Part shown: in pieces, positions 45,764-55,421 of the stretch
How positions within the stretch are numbered: the first letter of the stretch is position 1
Layout: the number at the start of each line of letters is the position of its first letter
Assembly: GCA_021817325.1 (NCBI GenBank)
Contig: JAKAVK010000007.1
Span: 1-64,000 of the forward strand
Direction of reading: 5' to 3'
DNA from: Microcaldota archaeon
GTDB lineage: Archaea; Micrarchaeota; Micrarchaeia; Micrarchaeales; CABMGC01
Length of the DNA stretch: 64,000 nucleotides
Program-made: the position numbers and the translations under genes
Notes under the pieces: model-generated
Databases searched by the model: none
Seen by the model: only the letters and a program-made list of their open reading frames with translations
Told to the model about the DNA's origin: nothing

Positions 45764-46234
45764 TCACTTCTCCAGCGCCCGCTCTGTCTCATGCTCGTCC
45801 CATGGGAAGACCACCCATTCGTCGGTCTCTCCAAGGCAGTAATCAGGCAGGAAGGTGCTCCATGGCTTCCTGAAGAGCGCGGCGCTCTTTATGTGCTGCG
45901 GCTTGTACTGTGCAAGGTATCCTACCACCCTCTTCATCGTGTCTCCCTGATCGACGAGGTCGTCCACCAAAAGTATGCGCTGCCCGTCAATACTGGAAGA
46001 GATTGTGGAAAGGATTTCTGGCGCAGTCCTGCTACCGATGCCGTCGTATGATTTGACATTTATTATCTCTATCCTTACGTCAAGCCTGTCACCTATTACC
46101 ATCGCCAGCGGAATGCCGCCCCTTGCAATGCCTATCACCTTGTCGAACCTCGCGCCGTCCTCCCATATCTTCTGCGCAAGTTCAGCGGAAAGCACTCCAT
46201 ATTTCTGCCAGTCCAGGCGCATCAATTTTGCCAT
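45764..46234 (-). CDS. Purine-type phosphoribosyltransferase
   Basis: IGIARGGIPLAMVIGDRL, ILLVDDLVDQGDTM (PRPP loop). Confidence 0.92.
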   Translation of the reverse strand: MAKLMRLDWQKYGVLSAELAQKIWEDGARFDKVIGIARGGIPLAMVIGDRLDVRIEIINVKSYDGIGSRTAPEILSTISSSIDGQRILLVDDLVDQGDTMKRVVGYLAQYKPQHIKSAALFRKPWSTFLPDYCLGETDEWVVFPWDEHETERALEK

Positions 46235-46309
46235 ACATTACTTGCTGCACCATAATTAAAAACAGCAAGCAATGCTATAATATAAGCCTGCGCTTAGAAA
46301 ATTCATATA

Positions 46310-46708
46310 ATGGCCAAGAGGGATCTCGTAGAGACTGCAGCAGCCCCTGCGCGCATGGGGTACCGCTCGTTCAGGCGGCGTGCTATCTACTCGTTTGCGC
46401 TGGTCTTTGCGGTATTGCTCATAGGCACAATAGGCTTCCATTATATAGAGGGCTATTCATACGTTGAGTCGTTCTACTTCGTCAGCATGCTGGCCACTGC
46501 CCAGGGCCCTGCATCCACTCCCGCGACTGCGGCCGGAAAGATATTTGCATCAATCCTGGCGTTCGTGTCAATCGGTGTCGTAATAGTCGCGCTTGGCTTC
46601 CTGTTCGGCCCGTTCCTCGGGAGGGTGATGCGCATGGAGGAGAGGAAGCTTGAGAGGGACGAGCATGCGCTGGCCAAGGACATTGGGAACTACGAGAGGA
46701 AAGTATAG
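46310..46708 (+). CDS. Two-TM ion-channel-like protein with non-canonical filter
   Basis: ESFYFVSMLATAQGPASTPATAAGKIFASILAFVSIGVVIVALGFLFGP matches the 2TM K+-channel pore layout but lacks GYG. Confidence 0.7.
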   Translation: MAKRDLVETAAAPARMGYRSFRRRAIYSFALVFAVLLIGTIGFHYIEGYSYVESFYFVSMLATAQGPASTPATAAGKIFASILAFVSIGVVIVALGFLFGPFLGRVMRMEERKLERDEHALAKDIGNYERKV

Positions 46709-47056
46709 GCAAAATTATGCCTAAAATCTGAATCAAACCGGACTGAATAAACGGAATAGGAACGCTCATATTCAAGGATGGCAAATGGATTTACATAGAC
46801 ATGGCAAAGCTAAGGAACGAAACATTCGCTATACCCAAGCCCTATATCAATACCGAGGGCATAGAAAAGGAAGTGTTTATTGCAGGTATAGAAGCTCTAT
46901 TTCAGGCGACTAATGCGACAGAGGCTCAGAAGTAAGCTTAGGTAATGAGTTTGTGGACAAAACCGAATATAAAAACTTTAGATGCCTATTTCAGCGCATA
47001 TATTCGAGGTACACGCCAGGCATCAGAATGATGATAAGAACTACAAAGGAGTTGAT

Positions 47057-47479
47057 ATGAAAGATTATGATATCTCTATTGGATTTATTCTGATCAACAG
47101 CAAAAACAGATTTTTAGTTATGCAAAAAGCTGTTGATGGCGTATGGGATTTTCCGAAAGGTCATGTTAAACCTAATGATGATAATGAAATCGCAACTGCT
47201 ATACGAGAACTAGCTGAAGAGACTGGAATAAGCGCGAATGACCTGAAACTTGTTGAAGGTTTTCGCAATGTAAACACTTATATAAACCCTGAGAAGATTC
47301 ATCGTAAGATCATACTGTTCTTAGCTTTATGTGATGCTAAACCAGTTCTGTCCCCAGAGCATACTACATACCAATGGGCTGACTTGGAAAAGGCAAAGAA
47401 ACTATTACGGTTCAAAGGAGGTCAGGATGCGGTAACAAGGGCATATAGGTTCTTGCAGAAACAATCAAAGGACAATTAA
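47057..47479 (+). CDS. NUDIX hydrolase (AT-rich, probably recently acquired)
   Basis: GVWDFPKGHVKPNDDNEIATAIRELAEETGI (NUDIX box); AT-rich codons; possible upstream start 46982. Confidence 0.93.
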   Translation: MKDYDISIGFILINSKNRFLVMQKAVDGVWDFPKGHVKPNDDNEIATAIRELAEETGISANDLKLVEGFRNVNTYINPEKIHRKIILFLALCDAKPVLSPEHTTYQWADLEKAKKLLRFKGGQDAVTRAYRFLQKQSKDN

Positions 47480-47686
47480 CTAACTTAGTTCGACTGAAAG
47501 TGATGAAATAATCAGAGCAAACGCCAGAGATCCAAATGATAAGGATGCACTTACAAGAAGTGTTAGAAGCGAAGATGGAGAGGCTGTAGGTTTTATAGCA
47601 GTCTACAAATCAGCTTTGATTCTAGGGGGAATAGTTACTGGGGGTTTAGTAAGACAAATTCCCTTACCTGATCCAATCCCAACCAA

Positions 47687-48160
47687 ATGCGAGGAGGATT
47701 ACAAGATGCATATCGAGGAATAATATTTCGCTATACTCGTAGATATTTTCCTCATCCAGGATCAGATCTAGATGTCTGGTTGTTGATAGACGATGCCGAC
47801 GCTGGTAAAGCAGATAAAATTGCTAGACAACTTGATTTACGTACGCTGTATCCACTCTGATGGTATGCTTCACAGAAAGAACCAGATCTTCGAGAATGGA
47901 TAAATAAAAAGCACAGAATGTATGGTGCATATAACAAACAACCATATTTATACCCAGAATCCTTGCTTAGAAGTAATGAGATACCACATTACGGTGCAGG
48001 CTTTAAAGAAATCCCAATCAATAGTATTAGTCGCGAACGCAAATTGAGGCCCGTACGTGACCGTATTGAGAGCTTTGTGTCATCCCGCGCGACGAACATC
48101 ACGTCGCGCCGAGGATTTTCACGAAGGAAAAGTTTTAGGGCTTTTCATCCACATACCTGA
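47687..48160 (+). pseudogene. Nucleotidyltransferase-domain gene interrupted by in-frame TGA (47858-47860)
   Basis: MRGGLQDAYRGIIFRYTRRYFPHPGSDLDVWLLIDDADAGKADKIARQLDLRTLYPL*WYASQKEPDLREWINKKHRMYGAYNKQ...; GSDLDVxL motif. Confidence 0.6.
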
Positions 48161-48240
48161 AGTAAGGGATTTCAAAGCCCATTAGAAAACATTAAATGCA
48201 TCGTTGAGGGGTTACTTGAATTTCCTCGAAATTAATATAA

Positions 48241-48311
48241 GCCCCAAGAGGGGATCGAACCCTCGACTTCCAGTTTACAAAACTGGCGCTCTACCACTGA
48301 GCTACTGGGGC
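48241..48311 (-). tRNA. tRNA-Thr(UGU)
   Basis: GCCCCAGTAGCTCAGTGGTAGAGCGCCAGTTTTGTAAACTGGAAGTCGAGGGTTCGATCCCCTCTTGGGGC folds as cloverleaf; anticodon loop TTTGTAA. Confidence 0.95.
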
Positions 48312-48485: not shown

Positions 48486-50426
48486 ATGGGGTTTAAAATA
48501 AAGTCGCACTTCAAGGCCTCTCCCGGCCAGCAGCAGGCGATAGATCGGCTGGCCGTGGGGTTTAAGAAGTACGACAAGCAGACCCTGCTTGGCATAACTG
48601 GCAGCGGAAAGACGTTCGTGATGGCAAATGTCATCGAATGCCTCCAGAAGCCGACGCTCATAATAGCGCACAACAAGACGCTGGCAGCGCAGCTTTACAC
48701 AGAGCTTCAGGAGTTCTTTCCAGAGAACAGGGTAGAGTACTTCGTGTCTTACTATGACTACTACCAGCCTGAGTCATACATCCCTACCACCGACACCTAT
48801 ATAGAGAAGGACTCTTCAATCAACGAGCAGATAGACAGGATGCGGCTGCATGCGGTTTCAAGCCTCATAAGCCGGAAGGACACCATAGTTGTCGCGAGCA
48901 TAAGCTGCATATACGGAATAGGAAATCCAGCTGATTTCAGGGGGATGTCGCTTGACCTGAGAGCCGGAAAACCAGCGACCAGGCAGGACATCCTGCGCGC
49001 TCTTGTTGAGATCCAGTACAAGAGAAGCAACCAGAGCATCGAGCCCGGGGATTTCAGGGTGCGCGGAGACACTATAGACGTGGTGCCGGCATACGAGAAC
49101 CACATAATGCGCATAGAGCTGGACGGCCGGAGGATAGGTAGCATAAAGGAGATAGATCCAATCACAGGCGACATGGTAACCAAGATAGATTCCGTTGTGA
49201 TATATCCTGCGCGCCAGTTCGTCGTGCCGCAGGAGAAGCAGCAGGCAGCAATCGAGTCGATAAAAAGAGAGCTGCAGCAGCAGCTCCCAAGGCTCGGAGA
49301 GCTCGAGGCCCAGAGACTGGAGAAGAGGGTAAGGTACGATATAGAAATGATAAACGAGATGGGCTATACGAACGGAATCGAGAATTACAGCAGGCATTTT
49401 GACGGAAGGGCGTCGGGCGAGCCGCCGTACGTCCTGATAGATTATTTCCCGGACGATTTCCTCACCATAATAGACGAAAGCCACCAGACGATTCCGCAGG
49501 CAAGAGCAATGTATAATGGGGATCGAATGCGCAAGAAGAACCTTGTGGATTTCGGTTTTAGGCTCCCAAGTGCATTCGACAACAGGCCGCTCAAGTTCGA
49601 CGAATTCGAGTCCAAGCTCGGGACGACCCTCTTTGTGTCCGCGACCCCGGCTGAGTACGAGCTCTCAAAGAGCGGCCAGAAGGTGGACCTCATCACAAGG
49701 CCGACAGGCCTCTTGGATCCTGTCGTAGAGGTAAGGCCGATGGAGGGGCAGATGAAATACCTGATGGAACAGGCAAGGCAGACGATAGGCAAGGGCAACC
49801 GGATCCTGATAACAACCCTGACAAAGAAATCCGCAGAGGATCTCACCGACTTCCTTGCCAAGGAAGGGTTCAGGGTAAGATATCTTCACAGCGAGATAGA
49901 GAGCCTGGATAGGATAGAGCTGATACGCCAGCTGCGTGCAGGCGAATTCGACATCCTGGTGGGAATAAACCTGCTACGTGAGGGCCTTGACATACCAGAG
50001 GTGAGCACAATCTTCATACTCGACGCTGACAAGGAGGGATTCCTCAGGGACGAGAGGAGCCTGATACAGACGATAGGCAGGGCTGCCAGGAACGTCGACG
50101 GTCGCGTCATACTCTTCGCAGACGTGATGACAAGGTCGATAAATGCCGCTGTGCGCATAACAGGGCAGAGAAGGCTTGCGCAGATGAGGTATAACAGGAA
50201 GTACGGCATAACACCAAAGACGATAGTCAAGGGAATAGGACAGAAGAGAACCGCAATCAGGGGGATAAGGCACCTTGGCAGGTCTGACATACAAAAGGAG
50301 ATAGCCAGGATGGACGCCCAGATGAAGCGGTTCGCGGAGAACCTTGACTTTGAAAAGGCAATAGAGATGAGGGATATGATAGAGGAGATGAAGCAGATGG
50401 CTGCGGTGCAGGAGAATGCGAGATAA
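48486..50426 (+). CDS. uvrB: Excinuclease ABC subunit B
   Basis: GITGSGKTFVMANVI, EYFVSYYDYYQPESYIP, C-terminal UVR motif. Confidence 0.97.
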   Translation: MGFKIKSHFKASPGQQQAIDRLAVGFKKYDKQTLLGITGSGKTFVMANVIECLQKPTLIIAHNKTLAAQLYTELQEFFPENRVEYFVSYYDYYQPESYIPTTDTYIEKDSSINEQIDRMRLHAVSSLISRKDTIVVASISCIYGIGNPADFRGMSLDLRAGKPATRQDILRALVEIQYKRSNQSIEPGDFRVRGDTIDVVPAYENHIMRIELDGRRIGSIKEIDPITGDMVTKIDSVVIYPARQFVVPQEKQQAAIESIKRELQQQLPRLGELEAQRLEKRVRYDIEMINEMGYTNGIENYSRHFDGRASGEPPYVLIDYFPDDFLTIIDESHQTIPQARAMYNGDRMRKKNLVDFGFRLPSAFDNRPLKFDEFESKLGTTLFVSATPAEYELSKSGQKVDLITRPTGLLDPVVEVRPMEGQMKYLMEQARQTIGKGNRILITTLTKKSAEDLTDFLAKEGFRVRYLHSEIESLDRIELIRQLRAGEFDILVGINLLREGLDIPEVSTIFILDADKEGFLRDERSLIQTIGRAARNVDGRVILFADVMTRSINAAVRITGQRRLAQMRYNRKYGITPKTIVKGIGQKRTAIRGIRHLGRSDIQKEIARMDAQMKRFAENLDFEKAIEMRDMIEEMKQMAAVQENAR

Positions 50427-53268
50427 CATATTCATAAAAGGGGCGAGGGAGCACAACCTCAAGAACATAGACGTGGAGCTGCCCAGGAACAGGCTCATAG
50501 TCATAACCGGTCTTTCCGGCTCAGGCAAGTCAACCCTCGCGTTCGATACCATCTATGCCGAGGGCCAGAGAAGATATGTCGAGAGCCTTTCCGCATACGC
50601 AAGGCAGTTCCTCGGGCTCATGGACAAGCCTGATGTGGATAGCATAGAGGGCCTCTCGCCGGCGATCAGCATAGAGCAGAAGACCACGAACAAGAATCCG
50701 CGTTCGACAGTAGGCACAGTCACCGAGATCTATGATTACCTAAGGCTCCTGTATGCCAGGGTAGGGACGCATCACTGTCCAAGGTGCAACAGCGCAATAA
50801 AACCACAGAGCGCAGAGAACATAACAAGCCTTGTGATGGCATCAGAGGGCGAGACGCTCATATTCCTGGCCCCAATACTAAGGGGTCAGAAAGGAACACA
50901 CGAGCAAGTGGTTTCAGATTTGAAGAAGCAGGGATTCTCAAAAATCAGGATCGACCAAAAGATATACTCCTCAGATACGGTAAGCGGCGAGGCAAAACTT
51001 GCAAGATATGAGAAGCATTGGATCGAAGCGGTAATAGATACGATCAAGATATCGGACGGTGAGAGGTCCAGGATCGCCGAGGCCGTGGAGCAGGCCCTTC
51101 TCGTTGGAAAAGGGAAGATGATTGTCATAGGCAAGAAGGCCGACAGCATAAAGAAAAAGGAACTCGACAGATTCTCCGGCGAGACAGCCTACAGCACTTT
51201 CGGTGCATGCCCAAAACACCCTGAGATAGTCTTCGAGAGCCTGGAGCCTAGGATGTTCTCATTCAACAGTCCATTCGGTGCCTGCCCCGCATGCCACGGC
51301 CTGGGCGAGATAACAGAGCTATCTACAGATCTTCTCATACCGGATCCATCAAAATCGATAATGGACGGCGCCATTGCCATATACGGCAGATTTGACCTCG
51401 GCTGGCGCGCACAGCAGATTGCAGAGGCCGGCAAGAGGCACGGCTTTGACGTGTGGACCCCGATAAAGAACCTTAGCAAGAAGCAGCTTGATGTCATACT
51501 CTACGGGGACAGGGAGCCTGAGGCGGACGCCCCTAGAAGATGGCATAACAGGGGCAGCGGGTTTGAGGGCGTCATACCACAAACGATGCGGTTATACAAG
51601 GACACGGAGAGCGAGTGGAGAAAGGAGGAGATAGAGAAATTCATGAAGTCCGATCCGTGCACAACATGCAGCGGAAAGAAGCTCAAGCCGGTAGTCCTCG
51701 CAGTAAAAATACAGGGCAAGAGCATAATCGACGCGACCGACCTCAGCATAGAGCAGTCAATAGAATTCTTTGGCAGCCTTCCTTCAAAACTATCCGAAAA
51801 TGAGCTCACCATAGCAAAGCCCATCCTTAAGGAGATCAATGAGAGACTCGAATTCCTGAAGAATGTCGGACTCGCCTACCTCTCCCTGTCCAGGAGCGCA
51901 AAGACACTCTCAGGAGGAGAAGCACAAAGGATTCGCCTTGCCACGCAGATAGGCAGCAACCTCATGGGTGTATTATACATCCTGGATGAGCCCAGCATAG
52001 GCCTTCACCAGCGGGATAATGCAAAACTAATCGGGACCCTGCACGGGCTGCGCGATATTGGAAACACACTGATCGTAGTGGAGCACGACTTCGATACCAT
52101 AATGGCCGCGGACTACATAGTGGACATGGGCCCTGGAGCGGGGGTCCATGGCGGCCACATCATTGCGCAGGGGACTCCCAAGGAGATAGCTGCAAACAAA
52201 AAGAGCCTGACAGGAATGTATCTCTCAGGCGAGTTGAAAATAGAGATCCCAAAGTCCCGCAGAAAGCCGATGGGTTACATGCAGCTAAAAGGCGCTAAGG
52301 AGAACAATCTGAAGAACATCTCAATAGATCTGCCGCTTGGCGTGCTGTGCGGAATAACCGGCGTATCGGGGTCTGGCAAGAGCACGCTGATGAACCAGAC
52401 CGTGATGCCCTTGCTAAAGAAGAAGTTTGGCGAGCAGACAGAGAAGACAGGGAGCTACTCCCGCTTCGACGTTCCAAAGGCGGTGCAGAATGTGATAGTC
52501 ATAGATCAGGATCCGATAGGCCGCACCCCGAGGAGCAACCCTGCAACATACACCAAGCTATTTGACGATGTGCGTAGGATATTTGCTTCCACCAGGGAGG
52601 CCCAGGTGAAGGGATACGACGAGGGCCGGTTTTCGTTCAATGTAAAGGGAGGCAGGTGCGAAACGTGCCAGGGGGATGGAGTGCTGAAGATAGAGATGAA
52701 TTTCCTACCTGATGTCTATGTCCAGTGCAACGACTGCCACGGCAAGAGATACAACAAGGAGACGCTTGCGGTGCTCTATAAGGGCAAGAACATCTCAGAG
52801 GTGCTTAACATGGAGGTTGAAGAGGCGCATAGCTTCTTCCAGAACATTCCCTCTGTGGAAAGAAAGCTTGGGACCCTGCTGGACGTGGGTTTGGGGTACA
52901 TAAAGTTGGGGCAGAGCGCAACAACGCTTTCCGGAGGCGAGAGCCAGAGGGTGAAGATATCCAGGGAGCTTAGCAAGAGCAAGCATGGGCATGTGGTCTA
53001 CATGCTAGATGAACCTACCACAGGGCTGCATTTTGACGATACTAAGAAACTGATAGACGTGCTGAACAATCTCGTCCAGAAGGGAAACACGGTCTTCGTG
53101 ATAGAACACAATCTGGACGTAATCAAGTGCTGCGACTACGTCATCGACCTTGGGCCTGAGGGCGGCGAGGCAGGCGGAAGAGTCGTTGCGACAGGCACGC
53201 CAGAGGAAATAACGCAGGCAACGGAATCATACACAGGGCAATTCCTGGGCCCCATCCTGAAGAGGTAA
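50416..53268 (+). CDS. uvrA: Excinuclease ABC subunit A
   Basis: ITGLSGSGKSTLAFDTIYAEGQRRYVESLSAYARQFL, zinc-binding CxxC pairs, second Walker A GVSGSGKSTL. Confidence 0.98.
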   Translation: MRDNIFIKGAREHNLKNIDVELPRNRLIVITGLSGSGKSTLAFDTIYAEGQRRYVESLSAYARQFLGLMDKPDVDSIEGLSPAISIEQKTTNKNPRSTVGTVTEIYDYLRLLYARVGTHHCPRCNSAIKPQSAENITSLVMASEGETLIFLAPILRGQKGTHEQVVSDLKKQGFSKIRIDQKIYSSDTVSGEAKLARYEKHWIEAVIDTIKISDGERSRIAEAVEQALLVGKGKMIVIGKKADSIKKKELDRFSGETAYSTFGACPKHPEIVFESLEPRMFSFNSPFGACPACHGLGEITELSTDLLIPDPSKSIMDGAIAIYGRFDLGWRAQQIAEAGKRHGFDVWTPIKNLSKKQLDVILYGDREPEADAPRRWHNRGSGFEGVIPQTMRLYKDTESEWRKEEIEKFMKSDPCTTCSGKKLKPVVLAVKIQGKSIIDATDLSIEQSIEFFGSLPSKLSENELTIAKPILKEINERLEFLKNVGLAYLSLSRSAKTLSGGEAQRIRLATQIGSNLMGVLYILDEPSIGLHQRDNAKLIGTLHGLRDIGNTLIVVEHDFDTIMAADYIVDMGPGAGVHGGHIIAQGTPKEIAANKKSLTGMYLSGELKIEIPKSRRKPMGYMQLKGAKENNLKNISIDLPLGVLCGITGVSGSGKSTLMNQTVMPLLKKKFGEQTEKTGSYSRFDVPKAVQNVIVIDQDPIGRTPRSNPATYTKLFDDVRRIFASTREAQVKGYDEGRFSFNVKGGRCETCQGDGVLKIEMNFLPDVYVQCNDCHGKRYNKETLAVLYKGKNISEVLNMEVEEAHSFFQNIPSVERKLGTLLDVGLGYIKLGQSATTLSGGESQRVKISRELSKSKHGHVVYMLDEPTTGLHFDDTKKLIDVLNNLVQKGNTVFVIEHNLDVIKCCDYVIDLGPEGGEAGGRVVATGTPEEITQATESYTGQFLGPILKR

Positions 53269-53272
53269 TGCC

Positions 53273-54877
53273 ATGATGCACATAAGCGGGGCTGTGGAGT
53301 TTGACCCTGCCAAGGTGCCTACTGATCCTGGCGTCTACCTGTTCAGGGACCGGGACAATACGATAATCTATTGCGGCAAGGCAAAGAACCTAAGACACAG
53401 GGTCAGTAGCTATTTCTCAGCTCCCCAGAGGCTTCAGATAAAGACAAGGCACCTGGTGTCGAACATAAGAGACATCGACTGGATAGTTGTGCACAGCGAG
53501 GTTGAGGCGCTGCTTCTTGAGAACAAGATGATCAAGCAGCATGCACCAAAGTACAACATAAGCCTTAAGGATGCGAAGACATTTGCGTATATTGCAATTA
53601 CAAAGGACGCGTTTCCTAGGATATTCTCGAGCAGAAAGACGGGTGCAGGGTTTGAATCGTTTGGACCATATACGGATTCGGGAAAGAGGAGGGAGATACA
53701 ACGCCTGGCAGTCAGCATATTCAAGCTGAGGACCTGCAGGACCATGCCGAAGAGGGCGTGCCTCAACTATCACATAGGCATCTGCACTGCGCCTTGCATA
53801 GGCAAGGTGAGCGAAGGAGAGTACCGCTCCCAAGTGGAAGGTGCGATGGCATTTCTAGGCGGCGACACCGCCCAGACAGTCAAGATGTTAAAACAGCAGA
53901 TGGAGGAGGCCTCAAGCCAGGGAAGATATGAGCATGCGCTCGAACTGCGGAACAAGCTATACAGCATAGATGCGCTTTCAAGCAGGCAGATAGTCGACCA
54001 CGAGAGGAATTATGACCAGGATGTCTTGGCGTTCAGGAGGCTTGACGGCAGGGTTATCGCCGTGCAGATGGGGATCCGCAGGGGCGTCCTCCTAGGCAAG
54101 AAGGATTTCGACTTCGAGAACCAGGAAAACTTCGAACAGGAGTTTCTTAAGGCATTCTACTCGTCAAACCAGATCCCCCGTGAGATAATACTGGAAAAGG
54201 GGTGCTGGTCAGACGACGAGGAAAAGGCCGCACTCGAGGAGTTTCTTGCGAGATTGCGCGGAGCCGCGGTATCAATAACAGTACCGGTCAAGGGGGAGAA
54301 GAAGGCGCTAATTGGCCTTGCCGCAAAGAACATAGAGGCAAATATGGGGCATGACGGTGCGCTAGTCGAATTGAAAGATGCGCTTAATCTGCCAACCGTC
54401 CCATCAGTGATAGAATCATTCGACATATCGAATCTGGGCCATGAGCACATAGTCTCTGGCATGGTGCGTTTTGTCAACGCAAAGCCTGACAAGAGCGGTT
54501 ACAGGAAATTCAGGATGCGGACAGTAAAGAGCACAGACGACTTTGCAAGCATGAGGGAGGTCATATACAGAAGGTATAAACGGCTCCTCGAAGAGAAGGC
54601 CAACATGCCCGACCTGATACTGATAGACGGCGGAATGGAGCAGCTTGGCAGCGCTCTCCAGTCTCTAAGTTCACTCGGCCTTGCAATTCCTGCGATAGGA
54701 CTTGCGAAGAAGCTTGAGGAGATATACCTTCCAAACGAGACTGTCCCAAGGAGGTTTGACAACAACAGCAGGATGATGCTCCTCATAAGGAGGATAAGGG
54801 ATGCTACCCACGACTTCTCCATCCGATACAACAGGAAGAGAAGGCAGATGAAGATGAGGGATGAGTTCGAGGGCTGA
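53273..54877 (+). CDS. uvrC: Excinuclease ABC subunit C, apparently lacking C-terminal HhH domain
   Basis: GIY-YIG domain PGVYLFRDRDNTIIYCGKAKNLRHRVSSYF, UVR motif, SFDISNLG, LILIDGGMEQL; ends at RRQMKMRDEFEG. Confidence 0.95.
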   Translation: MMHISGAVEFDPAKVPTDPGVYLFRDRDNTIIYCGKAKNLRHRVSSYFSAPQRLQIKTRHLVSNIRDIDWIVVHSEVEALLLENKMIKQHAPKYNISLKDAKTFAYIAITKDAFPRIFSSRKTGAGFESFGPYTDSGKRREIQRLAVSIFKLRTCRTMPKRACLNYHIGICTAPCIGKVSEGEYRSQVEGAMAFLGGDTAQTVKMLKQQMEEASSQGRYEHALELRNKLYSIDALSSRQIVDHERNYDQDVLAFRRLDGRVIAVQMGIRRGVLLGKKDFDFENQENFEQEFLKAFYSSNQIPREIILEKGCWSDDEEKAALEEFLARLRGAAVSITVPVKGEKKALIGLAAKNIEANMGHDGALVELKDALNLPTVPSVIESFDISNLGHEHIVSGMVRFVNAKPDKSGYRKFRMRTVKSTDDFASMREVIYRRYKRLLEEKANMPDLILIDGGMEQLGSALQSLSSLGLAIPAIGLAKKLEEIYLPNETVPRRFDNNSRMMLLIRRIRDATHDFSIRYNRKRRQMKMRDEFEG

Positions 54878-55005
54878 GAGCAGCACGGTTTAAGCATATA
54901 TCTAGTGAGCCTTTCCAGCCCATTCTGCATCCCACTAACGCTTGGTTTGCAGTGGCGCTGTGCTCTATTTCCTTGCACCTGCTGTCTTGTTCTCAAGATA
55001 AATCC

Positions 55006-55307
55006 CTAACATTTCGGTAAAACCGTTACCGCGTAGTCTTTGCTTAGACACTCCTCCTCTCTATCGCTGTAATCGCCGCCTTCTTTGACAAATAGATAGC
55101 CCATGGATGTTTCTATTTGCTTGTTGTTTCGCTTTAGGAATTCAAGCGTTAGCCTGAACAGGGGTATTGGTATGATTACGTATCCGGCGTGTTTGGTTTC
55201 CCGCTTTTTATAGCAAGTTCTCTTGTTTGGAAGCCAATCTCCTTGATATCGGGCCTTACTGCTTCTCCCACCCTGAGACCAAGCTGCGCTCGGTATGCGC
55301 AGAGCAT
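55006..55307 (-). pseudogene. Decayed tyrosine recombinase/integrase catalytic-domain fragment
   Basis: Frame 1 MLCAYRAQLGLRVGEAVRPDIKEIGFQTRELAIKSGK then shifts to KHAGYVIIPIPLFRLTLEFLKRNNKQIETSMGYLFVKEG; GLRVGE Arg-I-type motif. Confidence 0.65.
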
Positions 55308-55347
55308 CGAAGTTTAGGATTACATACTTGTATAGTGAATTTTGAGT

Positions 55348-55421
55348 GCTCCCAACGGGATTTGAACCCGTGTCGCAGGCGTGAGAGGCCTGCGTCCTTG
55401 ACCGGACTAGACGATAGGAGC
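55348..55421 (-). tRNA. tRNA-Glu(CUC)
   Basis: GCTCCTATCGTCTAGTCCGGTCAAGGACGCAGGCCTCTCACGCCTGCGACACGGGTTCAAATCCCGTTGGGAGC folds as cloverleaf, anticodon loop CTCTCAC. Confidence 0.95.

Follow-up and report, generated by a model that had tools for sequence, protein, structure and literature searches.

A decayed tyrosine recombinase gene behind tRNA-Glu(CTC) in a Micrarchaeota genome and the split-gene anatomy of its intact relatives

Introduction

In integrases of the SSV type, also called 'suicidal' or type I, the attP site is located inside the integrase gene itself, and integration breaks the gene into int(N) at one end of the element and int(C) at the other (PMC8371274, PMC3293823). According to a 2021 review, these enzymes have a single origin, form one clade carrying the PF16795 domain, and represent a system of hyperthermophilic archaea; the words 'DPANN' and 'Micrarchaeota' are absent from the text of that review (PMC8371274).

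Here, we analysed a stretch of 64,000 nucleotides (hereafter, the window), contig C27 of a Micrarchaeota MAG of about 1 Mb (991 kb in 32 contigs). It contains the remains of an integrase gene whose intact relatives, found in other genomes, are cut at the att site in a way that recalls the SSV type. No description of a Micrarchaeota split-integrase family was found in the literature searched (open-licence papers), and the family appears to be undescribed.

Results

A dead integrase copy directly behind tRNA-Glu(CTC)

A preliminary description of the window had proposed an integrase remnant adjacent to tRNA-Glu, running in the same direction and with a broken frame, and had named a search of the frameshift-corrected peptide against PF00589 as its refutation test. 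Both peptides it listed were found: the frame of position 55307 reads MLCAYRAQLGLRVGEAVRPDIKEIGFQTRELAIKSGKPNTPDT*, and the next frame contains VIIPIPLFRLTLEFLKRNNKQIETSMGYLFVKEGGDYSDREEECLSKDY. The joined relic peptide matched PF00589 with an E-value of 2.2e-4 (21.5 bits, collinear over profile positions 34-100, the curated cut-off of 27.1 not being reached) and was 64-73% identical to intact genes in related genomes, with E-values down to 1.6e-38, which bears out the proposal. At the level of sequence, a chance match of the relic to intact integrases can be excluded. The tyrosine recombinase pseudogene occupies positions 55032-55321 of the minus strand, and the features around it are as follows.

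48240-48311, minus strand: tRNA-Thr(TGT), the other border of the variable slot
48486-54877, plus strand: uvrB-uvrA-uvrC operon, abutting the relic
54878-55031, minus strand: putative, strongly decayed remainder of int(C), insecure (shuffle test marginal)
55032-55321, minus strand: pseudogene body, from NPKLR through the Arg-I box LGLRVGEAV and the beta hairpin to LSKDY (Pfam, relatives, DNA alignment)
55322-55334, minus strand: junction of the internal deletion (DNA alignment to L025, L026 and L028)
55335-55345, minus strand: first 11 nt of int(C) behind the tRNA, TCAAAATTCAC (DNA alignment)
55346-55421, minus strand: tRNA-Glu(CTC), the integration target, attB (ARAGORN and Rfam)

In global DNA alignments running through the tRNA, the intact genes closest to the relic were L025, L026 and L028. 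The 11 nt directly behind the tRNA are identical to those of L028; right after them, an internal deletion of about 215-260 bp has removed part of int(C). Homology resumes at about 55321 with AATCCTAAACTTCGA (NPKLR), runs to LSKDY and is clear as far as about 55032, and along the way the relic has suffered two 1-nt losses, near 55305 and near 55180. These alignments refine the preliminary description at several points. It had the remnant start about 40 nt past the tRNA and lack its N-terminus: the 5′ part is indeed gone, but through an internal deletion, since homology starts right behind the tRNA, and it is only the body that resumes at about 55321. The frame is broken as proposed, but the site is the 1-nt loss near 55180, where 'KHAG' proved non-homologous and 'NTPDT/VIIPIP' homologous to the intact genes.

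The catalytic set R-K-HxxR-H-Y is incomplete, HxxR, the second His and the Tyr being gone. Since the Arg-I half alone is kept, the relic is a remnant of the PF00589 family and not an active member, and the copy is dead; as an object, it is an ordinary mobile-element scar. One might still suppose that the 43-aa ORF in this region, a short frame with an ATG, encodes a functional small protein or RNA. Its ATG is a by-product of the 1-nt loss near 55305 relative to the intact genes, frames are broken twice across the region, and no orthologous short ORF was found at the same locus in relatives. We consider retained function extremely improbable.

Downstream of the body, the tract 54878-55031 extends to the uvrC stop (54877). 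When it was compared with four references, 5, 6, 35 and 76 of 300 shuffles reached the observed score. It may represent a strongly decayed continuation of int(C), an assignment that is not secure.

Intact relatives are XerA-like enzymes

In a scan of named genomes, the intact family was found almost exclusively in Micrarchaeota MAGs, with a few records labelled Marsarchaeota or 'bacterium' (best 80 of 163 relatives), which makes a Micrarchaeota archaeon the most likely host of the window. Intact members carry the catalytic motifs LGLRxGE, THSLRHYAI, FARH and TYI, and PF00589 was detected in five of them with E-values of 1e-11 to 1e-13 (2.4e-8 for one Ala copy), all above the cut-off. Searches of the own genome and of 40 relatives detected PF16795 nowhere, while the controls responded, and an hmmscan of the intact proteins did not detect it either. 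The nearest PDB neighbours in sequence and fold are of the XerA type (4a8e, E-value 1.5e-5; 5hxy, E-value 6.7e-9). We therefore assign the family, by sequence and predicted fold, to XerA-like PF00589 enzymes. The label 'Xer/SSV-type' of the preliminary description is apt for the sequence and fold (Xer) and for the gene anatomy presented below (SSV), with the reservation that the PF16795 domain is absent.

The family had no match in IMG/VR viral contigs, INPHARED phages or PLSDB plasmids, so that no free form was seen. Neither a circular element nor an integrase gene uncut over its full length turned up, which counts against the split reading presented below. The integrases without a detected tRNA had been candidates for uncut attP forms and yielded no convincing circular form: several of them carry the 3′ part of a tRNA with an intron-like interruption that was missed by the ARAGORN mode used.

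Small elements of the family (4-7 kb; L030, L074, L029), whose cargo was read by eye from translations, have as cargo genes resembling DNA methyltransferase/restriction functions, an OLD-like ATPase, or else ParA together with an IS630-like transposase. The own genome also has a second truncated integrase, a 91-aa open frame behind a predicted tRNA (L033 4399-4910, G000:C10).

The integrase gene of relatives is probably divided by its att site

Intact relatives mostly lie directly 3′ of a same-strand tRNA gene, in different genomes that for Glu(TTC/CTC), Leu, Ala, Val, Gln, Lys, Pro or Arg, and in most of them the reading frame is open through the 3′ part of the tRNA. In the window, too, the 3′ part of tRNA-Glu(CTC) encodes a frame, SGQGRRPLTPATRVQIPLGA, heading toward the integrase. 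In elements traceable to their far end, a partial tRNA copy (attR) is found 1.7-7 kb from int(C), preceded in the same frame by a short ATG-started peptide, int(N). Elements with attR and in-frame int(N) comprise those at tRNA-Glu (L092, L094, L100, L101, L103, L107 and G000:C7), tRNA-Val (L143) and tRNA-Gln (L119). The int(N) peptide of the Glu elements is M[EK]LE[NK]D[DA]K in seven copies, including the one in the own genome at contig C7; MELENDDK stands ahead of the tRNA-Val copy and MKLETRET ahead of the tRNA-Gln copy. Just upstream of the int(N) ATG, Glu elements have GGTGCTAGA or GGTGCTAGG (once GGTGCTTGA). In G135, the leader (int(N)), the att site and the start of int(C) are joined in frame, most simply explained by an element integrated beside an older int(C) stub. 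The Glu, Val and Gln relatives thus conform to the SSV-type definition: attP is predicted to lie inside int, with int(N) marking one end of the element and int(C) the other, in frame with each other. The suggestion that the rest of the gene should be sought across the element in relatives led to this tiny int(N); in the window itself no attR, tRNA copy or int(N) was found, and int(C) alone remains of the split arrangement.

The same data can be read as pNOB8-type (lambda-like) integration, in which a complete gene starts downstream of the tRNA, and chance would explain both the open frame across the tRNA and the int(N)-like peptide. The int(C) at attL does keep the whole folded protein, residues 1-47 of its frame are predicted to be disordered (AlphaFold2), and an ATG or GTG that might act as the start is present in several Glu copies, within the tRNA acceptor part or further in. 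Other Glu copies have none: in four of them (L103, L104, L106, L107), ATG, GTG and TTG are missing up to about codon 61, a position within the first predicted helix, so a usable start before that helix is absent. Coincidence would also have to account for the peptide that seven Glu copies conserve in frame ahead of attR, for its recurrence as MELENDDK before an unrelated tRNA-Val copy, and for the in-frame int(N)-att-int(C) junction in G135. We regard this reading as improbable and favour a gene divided at its att site.

What the division removes is small. The int(N) consists of only about 8 codons plus about 20 tRNA-encoded ones, so that some 20 of the roughly 28 leader codons are encoded by the tRNA gene. 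Because this leader is predicted to be disordered and four Glu copies have no start before about residue 61, the split seems to separate a start codon rather than a folded domain. We had entertained strong coding constraint on the leader and dropped it, since the first 16 codons of int(C) are only weakly constrained (pN/pS 0.54), which counts against the proposed split. In the tRNA-Pro(CGG) group (L130, L135, L142, L148), the integrase is located about 260 nt further from the tRNA and the att site is shorter (about 20 bp), a different geometry, which likewise counts against it.

Two further features of these loci were seen. At L202 (G135:C2), the integrase at tRNA-Glu is interrupted by an IS110-like transposase gene, and its attR continues in frame into a stub left by an earlier int(C), which makes this another scar like that of the window. 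Glu-type int(C) starts (e.g. L030 9450-9520) have a T-arm look-alike (GCTAGGGTTCAAATCTCTAGC) next to CGACGACAA just past the tRNA, and a similar motif, ACGACGACAA, lies ahead of the att site in some of the int(N) copies; these repeats may be integrase-binding sites.

The tRNA-Glu(CTC) slot has been occupied repeatedly

The tRNA-Glu(CTC)-rfcL neighbourhood is conserved among congeners. At the same tRNA, G005 has an integrase cut by the contig end, and G006 and G007 have int(C) stubs of about 50-60 bp; no int was found at this locus in G002, G003 and G008. The interval between tRNA-Glu and tRNA-Thr is shortest in G003 (145 bp), measures 3.5-4 kb in both G008 and G002, and extends to about 7 kb in the window, where it holds uvrBAC.

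Of the 41 genomes searched, three gave UvrC matches: the own genome, G013 and G015. Between these genomes UvrA, UvrB and UvrC are 80-82%, 77-78% and 69-71% identical, compared to 45-50% for PheT and 49% for RfcL, suggesting horizontal movement; uvrBAC has probably been transferred among Micrarchaeota. An element may have brought uvrBAC here, the relic being the left scar of an island between tRNA-Glu and tRNA-Thr. This scenario is compatible with a decayed self-splitting element, and the rarity of UvrC (2 of 40 relatives), the high identity of UvrA, UvrB and UvrC compared to PheT and RfcL, and the variable length of the interval speak for it. However, no attR was found near tRNA-Thr in the window, uvrBAC of G013 and G015 has different surroundings, with neither a tRNA nor an integrase, its GC content in the window equals that of the genome, and elements of the integrase family that were read carry other cargo. 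We consider such delivery possible but rather unlikely, and uvrBAC as proven cargo was discarded, given the missing attR and the different contexts in G013 and G015.

Several further observations are added here. The G+C content drops to 0.436 at 46000-48000, versus 0.526 for the whole window. In G002, contigs C16 (L067 1-127) and C19 (L068 1-127) share an exact 127-bp overlap at tRNA-Glu(CTC)+TCAAAATTC, the mark of an assembly-graph branch, which may reflect integrated and empty sites in a mixed population. Across genera, the int-less sites L067, L070, L078 and L079 have a TTATATATA-like stretch about 10-70 nt past tRNA-Glu(CTC), followed by a GTCGTCG/GTCGCCG-like sequence, the reverse complement of the CGACGAC motif.

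Discussion

A proposed history of the scar

We consider it highly probable that a small Micrarchaeota element integrated in tRNA-Glu(CTC), split its own integrase at att, and later decayed to an inert scar. Such an integrative element would have recombined into the 3′ part of the tRNA gene. In its circular form, a start codon with about 8 codons (M[E/K]LE[N/K]DDK) would be followed by the att site, read as about 20 codons, and then by the recombinase body, with translation beginning at the leader, passing the att site and entering the recombinase. Integration would restore the tRNA and fuse int(C) behind it without a start codon, while int(N) and a tRNA copy would be stranded at the far end (attR). 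We infer that the window copy integrated and was split like its relatives, and its int(C) was presumably silent afterwards. In the own genome, the element would later have been lost or rearranged, and int(C) would have decayed through the internal deletion, two frameshifts and the loss of its 3′ catalytic residues to the scar between tRNA-Glu and uvrC. Excision would then depend on an integrase supplied by a different element, an idea already put forward for suicidal integrases (PMC8371274).

For the family as a whole, we lean slightly towards independently evolved self-splitting tRNA integrases in Micrarchaeota. In these, att would separate the start codon, a presumed RBS and a disordered leader of about 28 codons from an otherwise complete enzyme, and integration would act as a translation off-switch that leaves the fold intact.

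The interest of the locus lies in these relatives more than in the scar: intact elements keep the start codon of the integrase across their own insertion site. If a XerA-like family without PF16795 shares the SSV-type anatomy, the split arrangement would seem to have evolved at least twice; comparison of the sequences indicates, and does not prove, an independent origin. With so small an int(N), control of expression becomes a testable purpose of the split, and the family provides a simple marker for locating mobile elements and the scars of their integration in the genomes of tiny archaea.

Comparison with known systems

XerA, the archaeal chromosome-dimer resolvase, is the best PDB neighbour of the family in sequence and fold (4a8e, 5hxy), whereas the Micrarchaeota enzymes are element-borne, multicopy and tRNA-targeting. 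They resemble pNOB8-type integrases in that a nearly complete frame directly follows the reconstituted tRNA and shares its strand, but here the frame extends into the tRNA and has its start codon at the opposite end of the element. NitEve-E3, a cryptic element of Thaumarchaeota, likewise has a split integrase outside Sulfolobales and Thermococcales; it was termed SSV1-like (PMC6563490) and is set beside the Micrarchaeota family by description alone.

SSV-type integrases (SSV1/SSV2, pTN3, pT26-2) share with the family the position of attP inside the int gene. They differ in PF16795 (Phage_integr_3), the mark of the SSV/pTN3/pT26-2 clade, which the Micrarchaeota enzymes lack, the nearest solved structures of the latter being XerA-type instead. 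The Micrarchaeota int(N) is also distinct in being limited to about 8 codons and the tRNA-encoded stretch, with disorder predicted, and the hosts are Micrarchaeota rather than the hyperthermophilic archaea of the review (PMC8371274). With this combination of features, the split-integrase family looks like a variant of the SSV-type principle in Micrarchaeota.
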